Below, piece after piece: positions 144-20,274 of a DNA stretch of 24,685 nt. How positions within the stretch are numbered: position 1 is the stretch's first letter; each line of letters starts with the position of its first letter. The stretch lies in the IMG/VR virus record IMGVR_UViG_3300047408_000344, positions 1-24,685 of that record. One strand, given 5' to 3'. Origin of the DNA: a virus. The translations under genes were made by a program, and so were the position numbers. A model generated the notes under the pieces. It searched no databases and was not told the origin of the DNA. It saw only the letters and a program-made list of their open reading frames with translations.

Positions 144-998
144 ATGGCCACCGGTGCCACTGAGTTCGTTGATAAAACCATCAGCGACGGCGTCTTCTCG
201 CCCGACATCTGGAGCAAGCAGGTCCTCCGCGCGACCGAGTCGAATCTGTTGTTCGCCAAGAGCGTCAACCGCGGCTTCGAGAACGACGCCAGCGTGGGCA
301 AGACCGTCAAGGTTGCCAGCATTGGCAACCTGGCCGCTCGAGCCAAGACCGAAAATACCGCGATCGTCTACGAAACCGTTGCCGAGACGGCGACCACGAT
401 CACGCTCAACATCTGGTCGTATGCCGCATTGGGAATTGAGGACATCGTCAAGGTGCAGAGCATCATCGATGTCCAATCCGAATACCAGCAGAAGCTGGGT
501 TACGCGCTCGCCAAGGACGTCGACACCAACCTGGCCGTCGACGTCGCGGGCTTCACCCAGACCGTGGGCACGCTCGGTACGGCCCTGTCGGACGCCAACG
601 TCCTGGCCGCGGTGCAGTTGCTCGATAACGCCGATGCGCCGCAGACCGAACGGTTCTTCTTGATGTCACCGGCTGAGAAGGTGGCCAAGCTGGCGTTGGA
701 CCGGTGGAGCAACGCGTTGTACATCGGCAACACCAACCTGCCGTCGAAGGACGGCCAACTCGGCGACATGTACGGGCTGAACCTGGGCGTCACCACCAAC
801 CTGGTGAAGCCGGCTGGTGGTCAGGCCAACAATTTCATCGGCCATCGGGAAGCCATCGCGCTGGTGATGCAGCGCACGCCGAAATCGCACATCTTCTACG
901 ACATCGATGTGTTCTCGTGGAAATTGGCCGTCGAAGAAATTTACGGCCACCAGATGATGCGACCGACCTTTGGTGTCTGGGCAAAGGGAGCTGCTTAG
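144..998 (+). CDS. Major capsid protein (HK97-fold, P22 coat-like family)
   Basis: This 284-residue protein has the composition and layout of phage coat proteins. The N-terminus (FVDKTISDGVFSPDIWSKQV) precedes a conserved pattern of beta-rich segments (GKTVKVASIGNL, TTITLNIWSYAALGIED) and a long helix (SEYQQKLGYALAKDVD). A C-terminal block reads FYDIDVFSWKLAVEEIYGHQ. It would form the icosahedral shell around the DNA. A strong AGGGGG ribosome-binding site at about 131-136 fixes the ATG at 144. The last codons (AKGAA, TAG at 996-998) are repeated beyond the antisense endonuclease gene at 1470-1487, so this 3' end is probably a replacement brought by that element. Coat identity rests on family resemblance and position. 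Confidence 0.85.
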   Translation: MATGATEFVDKTISDGVFSPDIWSKQVLRATESNLLFAKSVNRGFENDASVGKTVKVASIGNLAARAKTENTAIVYETVAETATTITLNIWSYAALGIEDIVKVQSIIDVQSEYQQKLGYALAKDVDTNLAVDVAGFTQTVGTLGTALSDANVLAAVQLLDNADAPQTERFFLMSPAEKVAKLALDRWSNALYIGNTNLPSKDGQLGDMYGLNLGVTTNLVKPAGGQANNFIGHREAIALVMQRTPKSHIFYDIDVFSWKLAVEEIYGHQMMRPTFGVWAKGAA

Positions 999-1474
999 GC
1001 AGCGTAGGCGCGAAGGGCCATGAGTTGAGTGCGGTAATGGGCAAGCAGATCAGCGTCGCGAATCTTCGCTCCGCGAGTGATTTCGCGCACCCCTGCGGCC
1101 CACACCTCGAACTGCAGTCGCTTTTTGGCTCGCAGCGGATACTGCTCGAAGAGGTCGACGAGGACGAGTGTGTCCGCCTGTCTCCAGACGTGGTAGCGCA
1201 AGCCAGGATTCTGATTCGGGCGCAGCGTTCGTGTGGCGCTGTGGTTGTTGATGATCCCGAAGCCGAGCCGATCTCTGATCTCGTACAGAATCGCGCCATC
1301 ATCGGCGCGCAGCGTGATTTCAAAGCGGGCACTTGGCCAACTGAGTTTGTGCGGATTGCCTTTGTGCGAGGACGTGTAGGTCAAGACGAACGCTCCCTCG
1401 CCATCAGTGAAGCCGGCCAGCCAGTGGCCGAAAGCAGGATCTATGGATAACACCCCTTCAGTATATTTGGCCAA
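995..1474 (-). CDS. LAGLIDADG homing endonuclease, antisense to the capsid 3' end
   Basis: This 159-residue protein has one LAGLIDADG motif near its N-terminus (GHWLAGFTDGEGAF, residues about 15-28), with the acidic catalytic residue in place. The single motif and the size match homodimeric members of the family. It should cut a long asymmetric site and drive copying of itself into empty alleles. Its stop codon overlaps the capsid stop by four bases, so the two genes converge. The start taken is TTG at 1474; a GTG at 1453 is a possible alternative, and neither has a clear ribosome-binding site. The N-terminal codons overlap the displaced capsid tail. Base composition looks less GC-rich than its neighbours and it contains no CTCGAG, consistent with transfer. 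Confidence 0.85.
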   Translation of the reverse strand: MAKYTEGVLSIDPAFGHWLAGFTDGEGAFVLTYTSSHKGNPHKLSWPSARFEITLRADDGAILYEIRDRLGFGIINNHSATRTLRPNQNPGLRYHVWRQADTLVLVDLFEQYPLRAKKRLQFEVWAAGVREITRGAKIRDADLLAHYRTQLMALRAYAA

Positions 1475-1487
1475 GGGAGCCGCGTAG
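1455..1487 (+). pseudogene. Displaced native 3' end of the capsid gene
   Basis: Read in frame to the TAG at 1485-1487, this stretch encodes PSVYLAKGAA and a stop. The capsid protein itself ends GVWAKGAA and a stop. The last 18 bases of the two ends match at 15 positions by eye. The segment has no start of its own and sits directly beyond the antisense endonuclease gene. It is best read as the original capsid C-terminus, cut off when the endonuclease and a substitute tail were inserted. It still contains AAGGGAG, which probably serves as ribosome-binding site for the next gene, and this may be why it is preserved. Confidence 0.65.
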
Positions 1488-1491
1488 CCCC

Positions 1492-2100
1492 GTGGCTGGT
1501 GAAACCTTCACCGAGCGGATGCAGGCCAGGACGCTTGGCCGCTCGGACATCCCCTTGAGACGCGGGCAGAACTACAACTATCCACTCCGGTGGTGGGCGA
1601 CTCCCAACGGGGACATCGTCCAGTTGCAGTCTGACCCCCAGAACCGCGCGTTGTACGCCGACCTGGGGTTTCACCTGCTGGCCGTCACCGCCGCGCAGGG
1701 CGACGTGCTGTCTGAAGTCGAGGAGTGGGAACGCCTCGAGCGGCCCAGGGTCATCGCCGAGCAGCGCAAGCGGGCCAAGCTCATCAATGCGATCCGCAAA
1801 GCCGACCTCAAAGATCCCACGCTGGGCACCCTGATCGATGTCGAGACGATCGACTCGCAGACCACCGACGAGCTCGAGGCCACCATCCGGGACATCCGCG
1901 CGCACGGAGCGGTGATCCGGGTGGTCGACACCAAGTTTCGGGACGAGCCCGAGCCGAGTCTGCTGCGCGGCGTCGAGACGAGCGCCACCAACGCGCTCGA
2001 GGACCTGCAACGCAAACTGAGCGCGGACGGCGCCAGGGCAACCACGATCGAAGGCACCGGTAAAGATCCCATCGATGAGGCCCGACGAAGGAGGACCTAA
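1492..2100 (+). CDS. Hypothetical structural-module protein with helical centre
   Basis: This 202-residue protein starts at GTG 1492, with AAGGGAG about 12 bases upstream inside the displaced capsid tail; an in-frame ATG at 1519 is the alternative. The N-terminal 60 residues (LRWWATPNGDIVQLQSDPQNRALYADLGFHLL) are followed by a charged helical stretch (EVEEWERLERPRVIAEQRKRAKL), then an acidic, polar C-terminus. No enzyme motif is visible. Its position right after the capsid suggests a head-completion or capsid-associated role, but function is unknown. Before the endonuclease insertion it would have lain a few bases from the capsid stop. Confidence 0.75.
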   Translation: MAGETFTERMQARTLGRSDIPLRRGQNYNYPLRWWATPNGDIVQLQSDPQNRALYADLGFHLLAVTAAQGDVLSEVEEWERLERPRVIAEQRKRAKLINAIRKADLKDPTLGTLIDVETIDSQTTDELEATIRDIRAHGAVIRVVDTKFRDEPEPSLLRGVETSATNALEDLQRKLSADGARATTIEGTGKDPIDEARRRRT

Positions 2101-2105
2101 GACCC

Positions 2106-2414
2106 ATGACCGAACCAGCACCCGTTGACTTCGTGGCTCAGGCGAACCTGATGCACGAGCACGGCCCGGCGGTGACGCCGCCCAGCACGCTGTACTTCAC
2201 CTATCTCAAGCCGGACGGCGAGTCGATTATCGCGCCGGCGACCAGTGCCGAGGTGTACCTGCGGGAAGGGTTCACCATTACGGGCGAGCAGACCATCGAA
2301 AGCGTGGATGCGTACAACGCGGAGCAGGCGGCCAAAGCGGCCCCGAAGGCGGAACGTGAAACGCACGCGCCCAGGGCTGAGCACGTCGAGGGGCCGGCTC
2401 GGCCGAGGTCCTGA
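2106..2414 (+). CDS. Hypothetical small head-region protein
   Basis: This 102-residue protein follows the previous gene by five bases and has a good GGAGG ribosome-binding site at about 2090-2094. A compact core (STLYFTYLKPDGESIIAPATSAEVYLREGFTI) looks like a small beta domain. The C-terminal third is an alanine- and charge-rich tail likely to be disordered. I do not recognise the family. Placement in the capsid-to-tail gene order suggests a minor head or connector protein. Confidence 0.7.
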   Translation: MTEPAPVDFVAQANLMHEHGPAVTPPSTLYFTYLKPDGESIIAPATSAEVYLREGFTITGEQTIESVDAYNAEQAAKAAPKAERETHAPRAEHVEGPARPRS

Positions 2415-2416
2415 CG

Positions 2417-2872
2417 ATGCCGCTGGACGGCGGCAAAATCGGCTCGCAGGTCGGGGCCGCGATGGGCCTGTGGACGCACACGCCCGTCGATTGGCGCGGG
2501 AACGAAACGGGTCAGGCGCCGCCTGGCCCGGCGGGGTGGCCGCCCAACGCGTCGGCTGCCACCGCGGTCTTTCCGAATGGCTCGCCCAGCGTGGCGACCG
2601 GTCAGGCAGTCAGCATTACGGCCATCTCGGTCACGGGCATCACCGTGTCGGGGGCGACCGTCAACTTCACCCTGTCGCAGTCCGCATTGAACTGGATCGA
2701 CTATGGCACGACGACGGCCTACGGCACGACCAACACGCAGGGGTCGGGCACGGGTCCGCAGGTCAAGGCGCTGTCAGGGCTGACGACGGGCACGCTGTAC
2801 CACTACCGGATTGCGGCGTACGCCAACGGTCTGACGACCTACTCGCCAGACGGGACGTTCACCACGTCGTGA
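2417..2872 (+). CDS. Ig/fibronectin type III-like virion protein
   Basis: This 151-residue protein has a proline-rich N-terminus followed from about residue 65 by a beta-sandwich pattern: VSITAISVTGITVSGATVNF, then NWIDYGTTTAYG, then LSGLTTGTLYHYRIAAYANG and a final FTT strand. The 'L-x-x-L-x-x-G-T-x-Y-x-Y-R' element is typical of fibronectin type III-like repeats. Such domains decorate phage heads and tails and often bind weakly to cell-surface glycans. It starts two bases after the preceding stop and ends with a GTGA overlap into the next gene. The fold call is from pattern recognition only. Confidence 0.7.
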   Translation: MPLDGGKIGSQVGAAMGLWTHTPVDWRGNETGQAPPGPAGWPPNASAATAVFPNGSPSVATGQAVSITAISVTGITVSGATVNFTLSQSALNWIDYGTTTAYGTTNTQGSGTGPQVKALSGLTTGTLYHYRIAAYANGLTTYSPDGTFTTS

Positions 2873-3315
2873 TCGATGAGCACGGTCGGACCGAGTATCT
2901 GAGCGTCATGGCGGCGCATCGGCCCGACTGTGCCTTCGGCCAGGGGTTTTTCCGGCTGACCTTCGGCGAGCACGAGGTGCGCTACTGCCAGACGTGGGAC
3001 GCCGTGCTGACCGCAACCAAACTGCTCGAGGGGGTGGTCCCGGAGATCCGCGTCGAACGCGACGGGCACTGCCTGGACGGCGACCCGCTGATCGGGGATG
3101 CCAATACACCCGACGTCGTCGACGGCGAGTGGTGGCTGTCTCTGCCGCGCGAGGACGCCATGCGCGAGCTCGGGCTGACTCGTGACGCCGACTATCGGCG
3201 GGCGTACGACGCGATCGCGGCCACGGTTTACCGTAGGGACAATCGCGCGTCGCAGGGCGGTGTGCGGGCGTCCATCGTCATCAAGCGGCCAGGGGCCAGG
3301 GTGGTGAACGCGTGA
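2869..3315 (+). CDS. Hypothetical protein of the head/tail module
   Basis: The start chosen is GTG 2869, which overlaps the previous stop as GTGA; an in-frame ATG at 2908 is possible. The 148-residue product is acidic and includes the stretches FRLTFGEHEVRYCQTWDAVL and DGEWWLSLPREDAMRELGLT. No known motif is visible. The open frame continues upstream in the wrong phase through the previous gene, but that part is a shadow. The gene is probably a structural accessory, judged by its position between capsid and tail genes. Confidence 0.65.
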   Translation: MIDEHGRTEYLSVMAAHRPDCAFGQGFFRLTFGEHEVRYCQTWDAVLTATKLLEGVVPEIRVERDGHCLDGDPLIGDANTPDVVDGEWWLSLPREDAMRELGLTRDADYRRAYDAIAATVYRRDNRASQGGVRASIVIKRPGARVVNA

Positions 3316-3530
3316 TGACGACGCAGGCGCCGGTGGTTCCCAGTGACCACATCACCGATGGCTTCTGGATACATACGGGGCGATTGCGCGTCAGCTATCG
3401 GCTGACGACGGGCGCGGTGGTGACCATCACGCTGCCGGATGACTGGCAGACGTTGCTGGCGCGCGTGGCGGCGCTCGAGGCCAGGCCCGTCATCAACAGC
3501 CTCGACGACCTGGTCTACGGACCCGCATGA
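3312..3530 (+). CDS. Small hypothetical protein
   Basis: This 72-residue protein starts at GTG 3312 or the adjacent in-frame ATG 3315, overlapping the preceding stop either way. It has a short beta pattern (LRVSYRLTTGAVVTITLP) followed by a helix (WQTLLARVAALEA) that could form a short coiled coil. It ends with an ATGA overlap into the next gene, so it is translationally coupled on both sides. Function unknown. Confidence 0.6.
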   Translation: MMTTQAPVVPSDHITDGFWIHTGRLRVSYRLTTGAVVTITLPDDWQTLLARVAALEARPVINSLDDLVYGPA

Positions 3531-3640
3531 CGACACTCTCATTGCAGCCGGCTCCCCCGAGTACGCCAGCGCCGTCGCTCGAGCCCGCGGTGCAACCGAC
3601 GGCCCCGGTCGTGGCGGTCGATCTCATGGGCGGAGGATGA
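3527..3640 (+). CDS. Very small proline-rich protein
   Basis: A 37-codon frame begins at ATG 3527 in an ATGA overlap and ends at TGA 3638-3640, four bases before the next ATG. It fills the gap between two genes exactly, which supports it as real. The product is rich in proline, alanine and threonine (QPAPPSTPAPSLEPAVQPTAP) and ends in glycines. Its final codons (GGCGGAGGA) form the ribosome-binding site of the next gene, so translation of this frame may mainly serve coupling. Confidence 0.5.
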   Translation: MTTLSLQPAPPSTPAPSLEPAVQPTAPVVAVDLMGGG

Positions 3641-3644
3641 GCTG

Positions 3645-4670
3645 ATGGCCACGCTGCAGCAGTACCGCGCGACCTTTTCGGTCGAGGCTGGCCCGTACAT
3701 CGGCCCGTCGTCGTACGAGGTCAGGGCGATGGTCGGCTCGACGACCAGCCAGCTCGTGTGTCTGGCCTATCCGATCATGTCGGGTATCCCCCAGGAAGAT
3801 CAGTTGATCGACCGACCGCTGTACCGCCCCAACGCGACCCAGCCAACCGACCGCCACCGCTACGTCATGGCCTACGACCCGTCGACGGGCACCATCACGC
3901 CCGATCTGCCGTGGTCGGTCAGCCCTTTCTCTGATGGCGCGGGCACGACGTACGGGTTCCTCGAAGCACTCACCTATTACGACATGGAGCAGTACGAGTA
4001 CCTGGACCTCGCGGGCGGCGGGCTGAGCGGAGTCGGCGAACGGTTCGAGATCCTGGGTCCGTTCGACGCGCCGACCACGCACCGATTGATCAACGAGGGT
4101 CTGAAACATTGCTGGATGGTCGTCGAGGTGGCGTGCGTTCCCACGATTCTGACCACCAGGCACGACCTCAACGTGGTGGCGCCGTGGCTGATCGACAGTG
4201 GCAACGTGCTGCAGGTGGGGTTGCTGGCCAGTGGCGAGGACCGCAACCTGCAGGACCCGTTCGAGCGCAGGATCATGGGCCAGGTCGAACGTGACGGCGG
4301 CAACTTCTACCTGAACACCCAGCCGCACACGTTCAACGACGGCGACCAGATTTTTCTCCGCGTGCTGAAACGGGCGTACGATCACTGTCGGCCGGCGGGG
4401 GGCACGTTCGGCGATCAGGCGGGATTGAGCCTGGAGAGCGACGAGGCGGCCATTGAGCCTGGGTGGGCGGCGTCCGCGGCGCTGGTGGCTGGCTGGCGGC
4501 AGTTCGGGCATCTGCTCGAGCCGGCGGCGAATCAGCGATTGATCCGCGACCAGGCCAGCGCGGTGGCAGCGTTCAACGACCTGGTCAGAGAACATCTGGT
4601 GGCGGATCTCCCCCAGAAAAAACTGTACCGCCAGCGCACGTTCGGCCCAGGCGTCAGGACCGCAGGATGA
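3645..4670 (+). CDS. Structural protein, possible tail adaptor or connector
   Basis: This 341-residue protein starts at ATG 3645 behind GGAGG and ends in an ATGA overlap with the 651-residue tail protein. The centre contains a helix-rich segment (TTHRLINEGLKHCWMVVEVACV) and later beta-rich parts (GNFYLNTQPHTFNDGDQIFLRVL). The C-terminus is helical (AAVAAFNDLVREHLVADLPQKKLYRQRTFG). The order capsid, this protein, large propeller-like protein, fibre resembles the adaptor-nozzle-fibre order of short-tailed phages. The adaptor idea comes from gene order, not from a motif. Confidence 0.65.
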   Translation: MATLQQYRATFSVEAGPYIGPSSYEVRAMVGSTTSQLVCLAYPIMSGIPQEDQLIDRPLYRPNATQPTDRHRYVMAYDPSTGTITPDLPWSVSPFSDGAGTTYGFLEALTYYDMEQYEYLDLAGGGLSGVGERFEILGPFDAPTTHRLINEGLKHCWMVVEVACVPTILTTRHDLNVVAPWLIDSGNVLQVGLLASGEDRNLQDPFERRIMGQVERDGGNFYLNTQPHTFNDGDQIFLRVLKRAYDHCRPAGGTFGDQAGLSLESDEAAIEPGWAASAALVAGWRQFGHLLEPAANQRLIRDQASAVAAFNDLVREHLVADLPQKKLYRQRTFGPGVRTAG

Positions 4671-6622
4671 GTCTGTACGCGAAACGCGAGCCGTGGCCGT
4701 TCCACGTGAAAGTCGACGGCGTGGGTTTTCTGATTGGCGCGCCGCAGCCGGGCCAGCCGGCGCTGGTGTCCACCAAGACGGCCGACGTCGGTTCGGTGGC
4801 TCCGCCTGACTACTCGTACGCGGGGTCGAATCCGACCAATGATAGGGAGGAGCCCTTCCAGAATCTGACGCTGGGTCTGGGCTTGGCGTTGCAAGAAAAA
4901 TGGGACGACCAGCGGTATATGTCGGCCAACGCGGTGGACCTGTCGGTCTGGCCGTGGTGCCTGGGTCCCGAGATTGGCACGTACACCCTGGCGGGCGTGG
5001 ACGCCGCGCGAGGCATCAATCGCTTCTTCGAGCTCGGCACCACCCTGTACGCCGCCAACGGGGTGAACGTGCTGAGAAAAGCCGCGGGCACGAGCGATAC
5101 GTGGTCGATCGCGCACACGTTCGGGCAGCCCATCCTGGACGTGTGCGTGTTCACGTCCAACTTCGACGGCGTGCAGCGGGCGTTCTTCGCACTGGCCGGC
5201 GCGGTGGCGCAGTGGACCTCGGACGGCACGGCGTACACGGCGATGGCGACGTTCAACGCGCTGGCCTTCACGGTCATTGGCAAGGAATTCTGGTGGGCAG
5301 ACGATACGAACCGTCTGAGAAAACTGGACACCAACGCTGACCCGACCAACGAAGCCAACTACACCAATCTGATTTTTCGGGCGGGGGACAAGAGCGCCGC
5401 CATCACCTCACTCCTGGTCACCAGCGGCGGCACCCTGGTCATCTGCAAAACGGATGGCACGTACACGCTGAATGCCGCGGGCGACGACCACGAGCTCTTC
5501 CCGTTCCTGCGGTACGCCGACACGCCCAACAATGGCAAGGCGTGGGGCACGTTCGAGAACGGGCTGTACGTGGCCTACGGGGATAGTCTGGGGCGGATCG
5601 ACTCCGACCTGTCGTGGACGTCGGTGGGGCCTGACGACCTGAGCTCGAACGTGGCGGGCATCGCGGGCCAGGTGACGGCGTTCGCGGGCGTGGGCCAGAT
5701 GTTTGCCTACGCGGCGTTGCTGGATCGGAACACCAACACGGGGTACCTGTGCAAGTTCGGGGCGTGGGTGTCGATGGGGGTCCGCGGACCGCGGCAGAGC
5801 ACCCTGGTGACGGCACTGGGTAGCCAGGGCACGGGCGAGCCGGTCCACATCGACGCCTGGCACGGCAGTGTCAGCATCCCGTTCGTTGGCCGCGCTATCC
5901 AGGCGTTGTTCGTGTCCACGATCGGCTCGACGGTGAGCGGGCACACGCGCACGTACGTCGGCTTTTCTGATGGGTCGATCGGCTGGATTCTCAATCCGTG
6001 TACGCCCAATCCCGCGGGGTGCGTGGACTACAAGTACTTCGTGGGCGACGGGTGGGTGGATCTGCCGGTGTGGCACGGCGGGTACCACGCCAGCATCAAA
6101 AGTCTGCGGCATTTCTCGGTGACGGGACCGCGGATCGACGCCCAGAATTACGTGACGCTGGAGTACCGGCTGGACGTGACGCCAGGTATGGCGTGGACTG
6201 CGTTTCCGCACACGTTCAACACGGCGGTCTATGACCGCGCGAAGTTTCCCACGGGGGCGACCTGCACGCTGGCGGCATTGCGGGTGCATCTGCACAACAC
6301 CGACCACGCGAGCTCGCCGCTGGTGTCGGCCGTGTCGTTGGGGCATGCGCTGCGGCCGAAGCGGGTGATGGAGTTTTCGGCAGACATCCTGTGTGCCGAT
6401 GGCTTGGTGCGGCGGGATGGCGTGCCGGTCAGGATGGGCCGCAAGAAGATCCAGGCACTGATCGAGGCGGCCGTGGACAACCCTGGAGCAGTGACGGTGG
6501 TGCTGCCCGACGAGACGACGCAGGAGCTGTCGTTTACGGATTACAGCATTCTTCAATCTTTCGATGAGATCGGGCGGCAGTGGCGTGGCAGTTTACGTAT
6601 CAAAGCGGTGCAGTGGATTTGA
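4667..6622 (+). CDS. Large tail protein, possible beta-propeller nozzle
   Basis: This 651-residue protein starts at ATG 4667 in an ATGA overlap. It is almost entirely beta-strand, with recurring blocks of the type 'strand-G-x-L/Y-x-A' (GTTLYAANGVNVLRK, KEFWWADDTNRLRKL, GTLVICKTDGTYTLN, ENGLYVAYGDSLGRID, RTYVGFSDGSIGWI). Such repeated blades suggest a beta-propeller, as in tail nozzle proteins of T7-like and related phages. The C-terminal part (MEFSADILCADGLVRRDG to VQWI) looks like a separate tube-like domain. It is the largest structural gene, and no tape-measure protein is present. The nozzle role is inferred. Confidence 0.65.
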   Translation: MSLYAKREPWPFHVKVDGVGFLIGAPQPGQPALVSTKTADVGSVAPPDYSYAGSNPTNDREEPFQNLTLGLGLALQEKWDDQRYMSANAVDLSVWPWCLGPEIGTYTLAGVDAARGINRFFELGTTLYAANGVNVLRKAAGTSDTWSIAHTFGQPILDVCVFTSNFDGVQRAFFALAGAVAQWTSDGTAYTAMATFNALAFTVIGKEFWWADDTNRLRKLDTNADPTNEANYTNLIFRAGDKSAAITSLLVTSGGTLVICKTDGTYTLNAAGDDHELFPFLRYADTPNNGKAWGTFENGLYVAYGDSLGRIDSDLSWTSVGPDDLSSNVAGIAGQVTAFAGVGQMFAYAALLDRNTNTGYLCKFGAWVSMGVRGPRQSTLVTALGSQGTGEPVHIDAWHGSVSIPFVGRAIQALFVSTIGSTVSGHTRTYVGFSDGSIGWILNPCTPNPAGCVDYKYFVGDGWVDLPVWHGGYHASIKSLRHFSVTGPRIDAQNYVTLEYRLDVTPGMAWTAFPHTFNTAVYDRAKFPTGATCTLAALRVHLHNTDHASSPLVSAVSLGHALRPKRVMEFSADILCADGLVRRDGVPVRMGRKKIQALIEAAVDNPGAVTVVLPDETTQELSFTDYSILQSFDEIGRQWRGSLRIKAVQWI

Positions 6623-7664: not shown

Positions 7665-8060
7665 ATGTCTGTCAAAGTCACCTCCTTCGATGATCCCACC
7701 GCCTGGGAGTATGAGCACGACGATTTCCCCGGTGGTAGTCACGGCGGCACCCTCGACCCCGCCATAGTGACATACGGGATTGGTCCTGATGGCGCACCCG
7801 ATGAGAACGTGGTGGTGGTGCCGTGCCCATTCGAGAACTGCGGCTCAGTGAGTTACTGGCCGCCAGGTGGTGGGGCCGACGCGCTGATGGGGCAGTCGTT
7901 GCACGTCATGGTGGCGATGCGGCCCGGTCTGGGCCGCGAGGGAAAGACGGCCGAGCAGGCCGCCAGCGAGGTCAAGCAGCGCGTGATCGACACCGACGGG
8001 GAGCAGCGCTGGGTACTCGACGATGCCGCGCTGGCGGTACTGGAGGCGACTCAGGCATGA
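7665..8060 (+). CDS. Hypothetical protein after the tail fibre
   Basis: This 131-residue protein starts two bases after the fibre stop. The N-terminal half is acidic and glycine-rich with one Cys pair (PCPFENCGS) followed by YWPPGGG, which could form a minor metal-binding or turn element. The second half is helical (KTAEQAASEVKQRVID, DDAALAVLEATQA). It ends in an ATGA overlap. It could be a fibre chaperone or a small tail protein. I do not recognise the family. Confidence 0.65.
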   Translation: MSVKVTSFDDPTAWEYEHDDFPGGSHGGTLDPAIVTYGIGPDGAPDENVVVVPCPFENCGSVSYWPPGGGADALMGQSLHVMVAMRPGLGREGKTAEQAASEVKQRVIDTDGEQRWVLDDAALAVLEATQA

Positions 8061-8239
8061 CCGACTACAACATCGGGCCAGGGGTTCAGGCTGCCATCGA
8101 CGAAAATAACGATTCCGCCCGCAGCGATGAGCAGTACGTGATCCTCGAGCCCGGACGGAAGGTGAGTCTCACGCTCGCGAGAGACGCACAGTACTGGTAT
8201 TACGAAGAAGACAACAAGGTCAATCGACTGGCTTTCTAG
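8057..8239 (+). CDS. Small acidic hypothetical protein
   Basis: This 60-residue protein starts at ATG 8057 in an ATGA overlap with the preceding gene. It is acidic and aromatic at the C-terminus (DAQYWYYEEDNKVNRLAF). No known domain is visible. Its last 100 bases overlap an open phase-shifted frame that leads without a stop into the cysteine-peptidase gene, so it could matter for how that gene is expressed. Confidence 0.55.
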   Translation: MTDYNIGPGVQAAIDENNDSARSDEQYVILEPGRKVSLTLARDAQYWYYEEDNKVNRLAF

Positions 8240-8289
8240 CGGGGATCGAGCCGGCACCACCGGCGGTTCGATGGGATCCCTACACACCG

Positions 8290-8715
8290 ATGGAGCCGCA
8301 GTTGACCGATTGGAGCTGCGCGGCGTGCAGCCTGGATTGGCTCAAGGTGGCGACCGGCATGGAGGCTGCGAGTGACCGCTACACCACCACCATGCAGATT
8401 GGCTACACCGAGAACATCAACCCGACCTACGGGCTGATGGATGGCTCAGGCGCCGAGCTGCAGCGGGTGCTCGGGGAGTACGGCCAGGACAGCGCGCAGG
8501 GGTGGCTCGACTATGACTCGGTGTACGCGCTGGCACGTGAAACGCCGGGCATGCTCAGTGGAGCGAACTGGTACCACTGGGTCGCTCTGCGCGGGGTGCA
8601 GGGCACCAATCTGTGGGTGGCCAACAGCGCGCAAGGCTACAAGGGCGTGCTCGACATTCTTTCGCGTGACGATTTCGAAAGATTAGGGCCGTTCAGTGTT
8701 GTCTGGCTCGTTTAG
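8290..8715 (+). CDS. C39/papain-like cysteine peptidase, candidate endolysin
   Basis: This 141-residue protein has the signature of a C39-like (papain-fold) peptidase. Gln4 lies six residues before Cys10 in QLTDWSCAAC, the same spacing as the oxyanion Gln and catalytic Cys of papain. His96 is in NWYHWVALRG, and Asn112 in LWVANSAQ can complete the triad. It probably cleaves peptide cross-links of the cell wall, because a holin candidate follows. The reading frame stays open upstream of ATG 8290 to 8131 and reads protein-like (RWDPYTP), but no standard start is there. The last 26 codons are duplicated downstream of the antisense HNH gene, so this 3' end is probably a replacement. Confidence 0.65.
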   Translation: MEPQLTDWSCAACSLDWLKVATGMEAASDRYTTTMQIGYTENINPTYGLMDGSGAELQRVLGEYGQDSAQGWLDYDSVYALARETPGMLSGANWYHWVALRGVQGTNLWVANSAQGYKGVLDILSRDDFERLGPFSVVWLV

Positions 8716-9255
8716 TGAACCCCACCGTAGTCGGTTGACGTACTTGGCGACGCAGGATTTTGAGCAGCGCGTGACGGGGTGGTTCTTCAGGCTGCTGGGC
8801 TTGCGCTCAACGAGAGTTCCACATTCAACGCAAGGTACGGTGACGCGGGTCCCACGGTTGAGATTCGGATGACGTTCCGGATGACGACGAAGCCAATGTG
8901 CGTCGCCCGTAGGCATTCGTCCTCTTGCGTCCCGGTCGCGATTGTTGTCTTGCTGAGTTCCCAGGTAGAGATGGGATAGGGCGAAGCAATGTCGAACGTC
9001 GCAGTGGTGCAGAACAAACAAACCGTCGGGGATCGGGCCATAGGTCAACGTCCACGCCAAGCGGAGGGCGCGCGTGTGGGGCTTACTGTCAAAAGTGAGG
9101 TCGCCGTACCCGCCGTCGCCCTTGTGAGGGCGACCTTGCTGGATGCGTCCTGTCCACAGCAGGCACGGTCCGAGATGTGCCGCATACGGCGGAGCAGCGG
9201 CAGACTGCCCGCGTTTCCAGAACTTCGAAATTGCAGTGCTGCGACGGATCGGCAC
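8683..9255 (-). CDS. HNH homing endonuclease, antisense to the lysin 3' end
   Basis: This 190-residue protein has the phage HNH block: CLLWTGRIQQG, then RALRLAWTLTYGPIPDG, then LFVLHHCDVRHC and SHLYLGTQQDNNRD. The first His pair, both Cys and the last His are present. Where relatives read C-V-N-P-x-H-L, this protein reads C-F-A-L-S-H-L, so the middle Asn is lost. A C-terminal zinc-finger-like part (CVECG with CSKSC, residues about 143-170) would help DNA binding. The start is GTG 9255 and the stop lies inside the lysin coding region, overlapping it antisense by 33 bases. It should nick or cut near the lysin 3' end to spread itself. Confidence 0.85.
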   Translation of the reverse strand: MPIRRSTAISKFWKRGQSAAAPPYAAHLGPCLLWTGRIQQGRPHKGDGGYGDLTFDSKPHTRALRLAWTLTYGPIPDGLFVLHHCDVRHCFALSHLYLGTQQDNNRDRDARGRMPTGDAHWLRRHPERHPNLNRGTRVTVPCVECGTLVERKPSSLKNHPVTRCSKSCVAKYVNRLRWGSLNEPDNTERP

Positions 9256-9270
9256 AGGGCACAGTTTACT

Positions 9271-9351
9271 TGCTACAAGGGCATTTACGACATCCTGAGC
9301 CGTTCAGACTTTGAACGTCTGGGCGGCTTCAGCGTGGTCTGGCTTACTTAG
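9271..9351 (+). pseudogene. Displaced native 3' end of the lysin gene
   Basis: Twenty-six codons plus a stop encode CYKGIYDILSRSDFERLGGF and then SVVWLT. They match the lysin C-terminus at 8635-8715 (GYKGVLDILSRDDFERLGPF, then SVVWLV) at 20 of 26 residues. Only about 53 of 81 bases match by hand alignment, and there are no gaps. It has no start of its own and directly abuts the 5' end of the antisense HNH gene. It is read as the original lysin tail, cut off when the endonuclease and a recoded tail were inserted. Confidence 0.8.
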
Positions 9352-9368: not shown

Positions 9369-9530
9369 ATGCAGATAGGAACGGTAGGGGCGTACGCGGT
9401 GTCGATCGGATCGCTGATAGCAATTATTGTCCTGCTGCTGGCGATCCTGGGGCTGGTCGGGGTGTTGCCGTTGTCGGCGACGGTGGTCTTCGGGTTGGTC
9501 GGCGCGCTCGCGGTCGCTCGTCTGACCTAG
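9369..9530 (+). CDS. Two-helix holin candidate
   Basis: ATG 9369 follows AGGGGAA (about 9357-9363) and opens a 53-codon frame ending at TAG 9528-9530. The product is nearly all membrane: one segment VSIGSLIAIIVLLLAILGLV, a short Pro-containing turn (GVLPLSA), and a second segment VVFGLVGALAVA ending in Arg. The small size, two hydrophobic helices and position just after a cysteine-peptidase gene fit a holin that opens the inner membrane for the lysin. No sequence motif can prove this. Confidence 0.6.
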   Translation: MQIGTVGAYAVSIGSLIAIIVLLLAILGLVGVLPLSATVVFGLVGALAVARLT

Positions 9531-17971: not shown

Positions 17972-20103
17972 CGGCGCAGCTCAGCGGAGTAGAGCGCCGT
18001 GAAGCGCTGTACCGCGAGTTGCTGCCACAACTTCGTTCGCCCAGTGGCGATCCGCATCGTGAGAAGTCGTACCCCACCGGTGACGGGCGGATCTGGTCCT
18101 TCTGCCCGGCCCACCCTGACGGGACCAAACACCACAATCGATCGCTGAGCCTGAGCACCAAATACGGGGTGGAGTGTTTCGCCGGGTGCGAGTTCACGGC
18201 CATCATCGACGGGTTCAACCTGCCTCACCAGCGACCGACCGAAACGGAGCGCGTGGTGCCCATCAGGCAGACCAGACGACCGGCGTCAGTGTCCTACGGC
18301 GAGCCGCGGCACCTGTACGTGTATCGCGACAGTTCGGGTGTCATCGTCGGCGAAAAAGGGCGTTGGGAGCAGGACGGCAACAAGACGTTCCGCTGGCGCA
18401 AACCCGGCGGTACGTGGCAGGCCGGCATCGCGCCGCTGAAGGTCAGTGATATGCCGTTGTGGGGCGCTGATCTGGTTGCCAGCGCGCCGGTCGACCAGAC
18501 GGTGTACCTGGTCGAAGGAGAGAAGGCGACCGAGGCGTGCCGTGCGCGTGGGTTACTGACCGTCACGTGCGCCGGCGGTGCGAGTACGACCGAGTTTGGT
18601 ACGGCGCTCGACGTACTGCGTGGCAGGGTGGTGATTCTCTGGCCTGACAACGACGCGGTGGGCAAGGGCCTGATGCAGCGCGTTGCAGCTCACCTGCGTG
18701 GACTGGCGACCGCGTCTTTGACGATCGCGCCAGGTGGCCCCGACAAGGGGGATGCCTTCGAGTACTTCAGCGGTGGTGGGACCGTCGAAGAGCTCGACCA
18801 GATGATTGCCCGCGGAGGTGTCGAGGCCAGCGAGAACAGGTTGAGCGAGTACCACATCGACCAGGACGGTGTGATCTCGGCAACCCGGCCTATCGACGAG
18901 ACGCTCACGCTAGGGTTCCACGCCGAGAACCTGCGCCAGGAGCGCACCGGCGTACACGCGCGGGTCAGTCTGACGTGCAACGGTGCTGACCTGGCCTGGT
19001 CGAACTTCAACGTCGAACGAGACGAAGATCGCGTCCGACTGGTGAACTCTGCAGTCAAGGCACTCCCTGCCGCATTCAAGGGGGCCTATGACGACAAGAT
19101 CCTGAAGACCGACCTGGACCGTTTCTGCCGCGGCCTGTGGGATGCCCAGATCGAGGACATGATGCCGTCGATGGTCGGCGGCACCCTCGAGCCGACCGCA
19201 CCATCGTTCCTGCTCTACCCGTTCGTCCTGGCGGAAGGCGGCACGATTATTTTCGCTCCTCCTGGTCGCGGCAAGAGTTACACGCTGCTGTTGATGGCGG
19301 TGTGTCTCGACGCAGGGAGCGAAGTGTTGTGGCTGCCCGTGAAACGATCCAAGGTGCTGTTTATCAACCTCGAGCGGGGCGCCAGGTCGGTCGCCGATCG
19401 GCTGGGCAACGTCAATGCCGCGCTGGGGCTGCGACGAGACCGACCGATTCCCATGATCAATCGGCGTGGCCGGACCCTGGCGGACGTCGCCCAGGCCGCC
19501 ATCAGACACATCCGTAAGTACGGTACCGAGGTGGTGTTCGTCGATTCGATCTCCCGCGCGGGCAGTGGTGACCTGAATGAGAACAACGTCGTCAACAAGA
19601 TCATCGACCAACTCAACGCGATGTGTCCTGCCTGGGTTGGGTTGGCCCATACCCCCCGTAGCGATGAGTCGCACCTGTACGGCGGGGTCCACTTCGAAGC
19701 CGGCGCGGACATCGTCGCCTGCCTTCTGTCACAACAGGAGGATGATGGACCGCTGGGAATCGGGCTGCAGATCACCAAGCAAAACGACGTCGGCCGCACG
19801 CCGCAATGGTTGATGCGCCTGGACTTCAACGGGTTTGGCCTCAGTTCAGTCAGGCCCGCTCGCCCGGGTGAGTTCACCGAGATCGAATCCGGGGCACGCA
19901 AAACCAACAAGGAGCAGATCCGCGAATACCTGGCCGACGCGGACACCAGCCGATGCAGCGCCACCGAGATCGGAAAAGAGCTGGGACTGCCCCGCCACGA
20001 GGTCGCGCGCATCCTGAACGGCGATCCTCTCCTGTTCGTCAAGCTCGAAAAACGTGGGCGCGAGCAGATTTTCGGGCTGCTGGCCAGCGAAGTCGGCGCA
20101 TGA
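17968..20103 (+). CDS. Primase-helicase (zinc finger, TOPRIM and RecA-like ATPase)
   Basis: This 711-residue replication protein has four visible parts. A zinc-binding site: Cys46, His49, Cys70 and Cys74 (FCPAHPDG, ECFAGC). A TOPRIM domain at about 178-245, with Glu183 in LVEGEK and Asp227 and Asp229 in WPDND. A RecA-like ATPase with Walker A APPGRGKS at 430-437 and Walker B VVFVDS ending near Asp526. A C-terminal winged-helix-like part (EIGKELGLPRHEVARILN). It resembles fused phage primase-helicases that unwind DNA and lay primers at the fork, but primase activity cannot be proved here. Repeats just after its stop may include the origin. Confidence 0.8.
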   Translation: MTAQLSGVERREALYRELLPQLRSPSGDPHREKSYPTGDGRIWSFCPAHPDGTKHHNRSLSLSTKYGVECFAGCEFTAIIDGFNLPHQRPTETERVVPIRQTRRPASVSYGEPRHLYVYRDSSGVIVGEKGRWEQDGNKTFRWRKPGGTWQAGIAPLKVSDMPLWGADLVASAPVDQTVYLVEGEKATEACRARGLLTVTCAGGASTTEFGTALDVLRGRVVILWPDNDAVGKGLMQRVAAHLRGLATASLTIAPGGPDKGDAFEYFSGGGTVEELDQMIARGGVEASENRLSEYHIDQDGVISATRPIDETLTLGFHAENLRQERTGVHARVSLTCNGADLAWSNFNVERDEDRVRLVNSAVKALPAAFKGAYDDKILKTDLDRFCRGLWDAQIEDMMPSMVGGTLEPTAPSFLLYPFVLAEGGTIIFAPPGRGKSYTLLLMAVCLDAGSEVLWLPVKRSKVLFINLERGARSVADRLGNVNAALGLRRDRPIPMINRRGRTLADVAQAAIRHIRKYGTEVVFVDSISRAGSGDLNENNVVNKIIDQLNAMCPAWVGLAHTPRSDESHLYGGVHFEAGADIVACLLSQQEDDGPLGIGLQITKQNDVGRTPQWLMRLDFNGFGLSSVRPARPGEFTEIESGARKTNKEQIREYLADADTSRCSATEIGKELGLPRHEVARILNGDPLLFVKLEKRGREQIFGLLASEVGA

Positions 20104-20112
20104 CCACAAAAA

Positions 20113-20145
20113 ATGTGTGTGGGGTCCGAAAAAGTACACACACAT
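20113..20145. repeat. First GT/AC inverted repeat after the primase-helicase
   Basis: ATGTGTGTG at 20113-20121 pairs perfectly with CACACACAT at 20137-20145 around 15 bases. The gene stop is only ten bases away. It is followed by the palindrome CTCCGGAG at 20150-20157. It could be a terminator or part of an origin. Confidence 0.5.
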
Positions 20146-20184
20146 GCCACTCCGGAGCGGCCAATTTTGAGATGCAGGTTGACA

Positions 20185-20274
20185 GAAAATGTATGTGTGT
20201 GAGTAGTGTGTCCCCCCCACGTTTCATAGTTTCGAAGAAACGATTAGGGGTACCGGGAAAAATGTATGTGTGTG
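20185..20274. repeat. Direct GT-rich repeats (iteron-like)
   Basis: The 16-base unit AAAATGTATGTGTGTG occurs at 20186-20201 and again at 20259-20274. A shorter relative, AAAATGTGTGTG, lies at 20110-20121. An AT-rich start followed by alternating TG is unlike the rest of this GC-rich sequence. Repeats next to a primase-helicase gene resemble initiator-binding iterons, though only two full copies are present. Alternating TG can also adopt Z-DNA. Confidence 0.45.

Follow-up and report, generated by a model that had tools for sequence, protein, structure and literature searches.

Organization of the lysin locus

We analyzed IMG/VR virus record IMGVR_UViG_3300047408_000344 over its full length of 24,685 bases (hereafter, the window), which includes capsid and terminase genes. 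At its lysin locus, the gene for a lysin-like cysteine peptidase ends in a C-terminal segment that occurs a second time downstream, with an antisense HNH endonuclease gene between the two versions. The features of this locus, in window positions, are as follows.

8290–8715, plus strand: lysin-like cysteine peptidase gene of the C39/papain fold (from Cys/His invariance and a structure model), a hybrid of resident body and imported tail
8636–8646, plus strand: left GCTACAAGGGC copy, closing the left homology arm; the 120 bases up to 8646 equal the empty allele of G001
8647–8715, plus strand: imported recoded lysin tail, 22 codons and stop, with an abrupt boundary at 8646/8647
8683–9255, minus strand: HNH_3 homing-type endonuclease gene (PF13392), antisense, 190 amino acids, missing from the lysin locus of empty relatives
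9256–9271, no strand: element-specific spacer from the 5′ end of the HNH gene to the right arm (which begins at 9272), unmatched in the empty allele
9272–9351, plus strand: resident lysin tail, now an orphan and proposed as the right homology arm, starting with the second GCTACAAGGGC (9272–9282)
9369–9530, plus strand: short membrane (holin-like) gene 3′ of the lysin, from sequence reading; the same neighbor is present in empty and filled alleles

The fused tail (8635–8715) and the downstream fragment (9271–9351) align without gaps and with their stops in register; 20 of the 26 residues are the same, as are 53 of the 81 bases. Their ungapped BLOSUM62 score of 103 is far beyond chance (100,000 shuffles: mean −29, standard deviation 12.5, maximum 37). 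Over the 22 codons that follow the shared GGCTACAAGGGC, 6 are identical, 11 differ synonymously, and 5 differ nonsynonymously, such that the imported and resident tails are identical at 17 of 22 residues but 39 of 66 bases. In a stop-anchored scan of tails across 173 records (1.83 Mb), the lysin pair scored 106. The only other matches above 55 came from L112 (157 and 91), as overlapping frames of duplicated HNH genes, and from G030 (92), as a tandem gene duplication without an endonuclease gene.

The open reading frame between the tails belongs to the HNH_3 family (E=3.8e-12; 46.1 bits, curated cut-off 24.8), and its protein has a zinc-finger-like CxxC...CxxxC motif at the C-terminus. It overlaps the lysin gene by 33 bases (8683–8715), with a TTA codon of the lysin serving as the TAA stop of the HNH gene. 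The HNH gene showed no promoter-like site. A search with its protein returned only four relatives, all distant.

Empty alleles and a clean insertion

A scan of viral contigs yielded 22 relatives of the lysin. In four of these (L002, L003, L005, and L006), the lysin is uninterrupted, ends in YKGIYDILSRSDFERLGGFSVVWLT, and is followed by the same spacer and holin-like gene. The tail DNA of these empty alleles matches the orphan at 80 of 81 bases and the fused tail at 54 of 81, and nothing closer to the fused tail was found in the empty relatives. The locus is thus polymorphic for the presence of the HNH gene at a single site, being filled in the window and empty in these four.

Comparison with G001 (the record of L002) defines the insertion precisely. 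The two sequences are identical over at least 120 bases up to position 8646 and again for 311 bases from position 9272, and the window has 636 extra bases between these flanks. The lysin body and the orphan are therefore the uninterrupted flanks of the empty allele, which meet at GCTACAAGGGC, the sequence by which both arms overlap there. The first recoded base marks the start of the insert, and the orphan its end. It consists of the replacement tail (8647–8715) and the antisense HNH_3 gene, which is its sole family-matched gene; no integrase is present. The 90 bases ahead of the tail do not differ from the nearest empty allele, whereas the tail and stop, 69 bases in all, differ from it at 27 positions. 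Because the flanks equal the empty allele and the orphan matches the tail of the relatives, we identify the orphan as the resident tail and the fused tail as having arrived with the HNH gene, apparently in a recent insertion.

These results agree with a sequence-only reading of the window, which had noted two gapless, stop-aligned copies with an opposite-strand HNH gene between them, overlapping the first by 33 bases, and had proposed the downstream copy to be the resident tail and the upstream one a replacement carried in by the element, possibly recoded to escape recognition by its own nuclease. The HNH-free lysins it predicted, ending like the orphan and followed by a holin gene, exist in four relatives, and none of the empty relatives has a tail like the fused one.

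The empty lysins of two other relatives (L004 and L007) are nearly identical to that of L002 until the last codons, where they switch abruptly to another spelling that extends into the next gene. These tails appear as if they were footprints of past conversion without an endonuclease gene.

A second element in the capsid gene

The same architecture, with other endonucleases and in other genes, recurs in this phage and in related soil phages. A second case in the window lies at the major capsid gene.

144–998, plus strand: major capsid gene (Phage_capsid_2, Pfam E=5.6e-8), last codons recoded (about 981–998)
995–1474, minus strand: LAGLIDADG_1 endonuclease gene (Pfam E=7.3e-15), antisense, its stop overlapping the capsid stop
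1470–1487, plus strand: resident end of the capsid gene, now an orphan, GCCAAGGGAGCCGCGTAG; the capsid genes of empty L033 and L035 end in exactly this sequence

The fused capsid end reads GCAAAGGGAGCTGCTTAG, and its last six codons differ from the orphan by three synonymous and no nonsynonymous changes. The net insert is 489 bp, and 56 empty-allele flank pairs were detected for it. The 80 capsid relatives are mostly empty; four distinct filled alleles were seen (window, L064, L097=L099, and L059=L060), with two endonuclease families among them. L097 and L099, from two samples, have a LAGLIDADG element related to that of the window (57% identity), and their fused capsid end has six synonymous and no nonsynonymous changes from the orphan over eight codons. 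The sequence-only reading, right about the lysin element, had missed both this element of another nuclease family and the N-terminal versions in relatives described below.

Recurrence among related phages

Among 50 records of relatives, 22 have HNH_3 genes (33 hits) and 1 has a LAGLIDADG gene; most have empty alleles. Six further cases of a recoded gene end were found: the capsid gene of L097=L099, a tail gene in G001, G031/L067, G017, and gene heads in G030 and L112. In these cases, the endonuclease gene always runs antisense to the gene whose end it has recoded.

4667–6622, plus strand: tail gene, empty in the window; G001/L002 have it invaded at the 3′ end, G017/L033 and G018 at the 5′ end

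In G001, 17 codons of the tail gene are identical to those of the window and are followed by 19 codons with 10 synonymous and 4 nonsynonymous changes, which adjoin an antisense HNH gene. G031/L067 is a short recoded case with an orphan. Mirror cases also exist, in which the recoded segment carried by the element is instead the N-terminus of the gene that follows. The functional gene head in G017 reads GTG AGT CTA TAC GCT AAA AGA GAG, and the displaced upstream head ATG AGT CTG TAC GCG AAG CGC GAG, with four synonymous changes after the start codon. The heads in G030 and L112 are longer (16 and 18 codons, respectively), with the antisense HNH gene between both heads, and the L112 head has 12 synonymous and 3 nonsynonymous changes. 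Pooled over the six tabulated cases, there are 35 synonymous and 9 nonsynonymous changes (P about 2e-12 under random change).

Several other arrangements were observed in these relatives. A small stretch of L112 (reverse complement, 1792–4505) contains a pair of related NUMOD4-type HNH genes. One follows the capsid gene, and the other precedes the MPVDG gene and has the displaced 18-codon head; possibly, one endonuclease has spread between neighboring sites. In G028 (the record of L060; 18711–19380), an HNH gene lies within the next gene (MPLKKSGSKAA...), about 30 codons in, and either splits it or replaces its head. Compared with L009, L004 (6819–7214) has an HNH gene inserted in a zinc-binding gene (CPLCLRCFCLEHD), within its N-terminal portion; this HNH gene is sense to its host gene, and the intervening segment looks imported. 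Lastly, G030 (reverse complement, 19593–20232) has two stop-aligned ...PGDDVSAGCF tails that are 555 bp apart with no endonuclease gene between them, which looks like a gene duplication.

Cultured phages

A search for the lysin among cultured phages gave no match. Gordonia phage Belphegor (PV366776.1) does have an HNH gene next to a recoded gene end: its antisense HNH gene 34 lies behind minor tail gene 33. Gene 33 has 1–10 bases per 20-codon window that differ from the nearest empty relative, but 17 in the last 20 codons, making the tail a clear outlier within the gene. Two of the tail codons differ from a form that is identical in 9 of 9 empty relatives, including phages that are ~77% identical overall. 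The head of gene 35 is also altered. Empty relatives of Belphegor exist on the same host (Gordonia terrae 3612), among them Phinally and MelBins at about 90% identity.

The T7-like phages ZH4 and P413 were not counted as cases. Their HNH genes are sense, the upstream tail is unchanged, and it is the downstream head that differs (gp16 in ZH4); they were excluded because the empty relative phiYIO1-1 shares the gp16 head of ZH4. Within the K1F-like coliphages, HNH-bearing ZH4 (L281, gp16 start 2941) departs sharply from K1F/ST31 over the first ~50 codons of gp16. The ZH4-type head of HNH-free phiYIO1-1 (L293) is possibly a relic of a lost element in a well-studied group of phages.

The lysin and its phage

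The lysin has no Pfam family match. Its Cys and His are invariant across 13 relatives, and its structure model (predicted local distance difference test score, pLDDT, of 75) resembles C39/papain-like peptidases at a template modeling (TM) score of about 0.5, the top structural match being the pseudomurein endoisopeptidase PeiR (TM about 0.5). The imported tail contains the last helix (139–145) and the last strand (148–153) of the model, and thus a truncated lysin would be expected to lose its fold.

The lysin frame is open and conserved 5′ of the ATG at 8290 (window 8057–8290), has no usual start codon there, and overlaps a preceding 60-codon open reading frame in another frame. This overlap suggests a programmed frameshift fusion (...LAF / LAGIEPAPPAVRWDPYTPM). 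As to the host, no relative was found when the capsid profile was compared with bacterial and archaeal genomes. The best terminase matches among those listed are distant phages (23–31%).

Proposed mechanism

In our view, the 636-bp insert is likely a mobile homing endonuclease gene that is directed at coding sequence within a gene the phage needs and brings a substitute for the end it severs. In a mixed infection, the HNH protein would cut or nick empty alleles near GGCTACAAGGGC, and repair would copy the element, with the lysin body acting as the left arm and the orphan tail as the right arm. The replacement tail would restore the lysin by supplying the last helix and strand of the modeled fold. 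Its different spelling may have two effects: it would spare the replacement tail from cleavage by its own nuclease, and it would keep the recipient tail from pairing with the replacement, a pairing that would end repair before the HNH gene was copied. By analogy, the element would be in effect a natural “home-and-rescue” drive.

Several observations weigh against this account or limit its reach. Cleavage, homing, and selection for recoding are inferred steps. A single contig is all that was seen of the lysin element, and the search for its donor was unsuccessful; the fused-tail 21-mer has 0 exact matches in the viral collection. The imported capsid tails fall within the divergence range of natural homologues, and hence selection for recoding is a hypothesis. 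The abrupt tail swaps in L004 and L007 imply that tails can be exchanged without a resident endonuclease gene. Belphegor has no orphan tail. Finally, several HNH genes of the relatives are intergenic without a recoded upstream end (G003 and G009), which indicates that carriage of a rescuing gene end is common but not universal.

A broader proposal is that phages hold a widespread class of such elements, in which unrelated endonucleases invade essential genes with selectively recoded C- or N-terminal ends and an orphan arm, the recoding both blocking self-cutting and forcing the nuclease gene to be copied along. We advance this tentatively, as an idea that falls somewhat short of probable. The proposed mechanism is directly testable, because cultured Gordonia phages provide filled and empty alleles on one host.

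Alternative explanations

The strongest alternative accepts the same insertion but takes the spelling of the tail to be the divergence of a donor phage, brought in by one-sided repair without selection for recoding. We hold this to be a serious possibility, only slightly on the doubtful side. The divergence of the tails is within the range of natural homologues for the capsid, lysin, and tail genes; the imported lysin tail protein is nearest to that of L008 (19 of 22 residues), which suggests a donor from another lineage; and one-sided, microhomology-based repair occurs in the homing of T4 introns (reviewed in PMC2988022). On the other hand, the imported lysin tail differs from all ten natural tails at 67–78% of same-residue codons, whereas pairs of natural tails reach 75%. 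This divergence, at or above the natural maximum, is suggestive of recoding but fits an unsampled donor as well. The Belphegor tail, with its 17 differences against 1–10 per window elsewhere and its changes in two codons common to nine empty relatives, also argues for recoding.

It is very unlikely that the locus is a metagenome assembly chimera of two phage populations. Although the lysin insert is known from one contig, the right flank resumes at the exact homologous base and remains identical for 311 bases, analogous elements occur in independent samples (L097/L099, L059/L060, and L066/L067), and a related arrangement exists in a cultured phage.

We likewise give hardly any credence to an ordinary tandem duplication of the lysin end, with the HNH gene landing later between the copies. 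Two stop-aligned copies do exist, and G030 provides an example of tandem duplication free of an endonuclease gene. However, both flanks equal the empty allele for more than 100 bases, with the insert running from the first recoded base to the orphan. A recent duplication would also leave near-identical copies, but here only the orphan matches the relatives, and the same arrangement is seen again with different nucleases in different genes.

We rejected as highly improbable the reading in which the insert is a group I intron or is otherwise spliced out, the fused tail then serving as an alternative C-terminus of the unspliced form. HNH and LAGLIDADG genes are commonly intron-borne, but the insert opens with a complete in-frame tail and stop, and no intron family of Rfam was matched, either in the window at E≤1 (chance miRNA hits only) or in seven pieces of relatives at the gathering threshold. 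Nor is the HNH gene an in-frame intein, because it is antisense.

Comparison with known systems

Homing endonuclease genes are thought to avoid harming their hosts by residing in introns, inteins, or intergenic gaps. Here, endonuclease genes occupy the coding sequence of lysis and structural genes, paid for with a spare gene end. If the proposed mechanism is true, it would explain how these genes gain access to conserved coding targets and how phage gene ends become mosaic.

Prophages and islands are known to regenerate the 3′ end of a protein-coding target. In the case of e14 and phage 21 in icd, the gene end is swapped for a homologous, diverged copy, reversibly and by means of an integrase and attachment site. 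The 636-bp insert differs in having no integrase. We found no phage precedent for a carried replacement gene end with an orphaned resident end in the open-licence papers searched, and a precedent elsewhere is possible.

The closest described elements are the mobile endonuclease open reading frames that replace C-termini in the mitochondrial genes atp6 of Allomyces macrogynus and atp6, atp9, cox2, and nad3 of Glomus sp., in which the native C-terminus is 91–98% identical in nucleotides to that of a relative and the inserted one 64–81% (PMC3630166). As in these, the endonuclease gene lies in the 3′ part of its host gene, which gains a foreign in-frame C-terminus. Likewise, the native C-terminus is displaced downstream and is closer to the uninvaded relative (80 of 81 versus 54 of 81 bases here), and the protein is conserved while the DNA differs. 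The phage elements are not members of this group. They reside in phage genomes, their endonuclease genes are antisense rather than sense or in phase, they use HNH and LAGLIDADG nucleases, they include N-terminal mirror versions, and several occur per phage group, in both structural and lysis genes.

By their domain and their presence/absence polymorphism, the phage elements may be classed as free-standing homing endonuclease genes. They share these two features with the free-standing genes of T-even and T7-like phages (seg, mob; HNH_3), along with insertion beside essential genes and overlap with the end of the neighboring gene (PMC2988022). The T-even and T7-like genes, unlike the phage elements here, are intergenic and mostly cut at a distance, and we found no description of them carrying a replacement end and orphaning the resident one.

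The synthetic HomeR drive (PMC7968924) likewise consists of a nuclease inserted in the essential gene that it targets, together with a recoded part that restores this gene. HomeR is an engineered Cas9 system in insects, and the likeness is an analogy of logic only; if the proposed mechanism is true, the elements described here would be a natural counterpart of engineered rescue drives.
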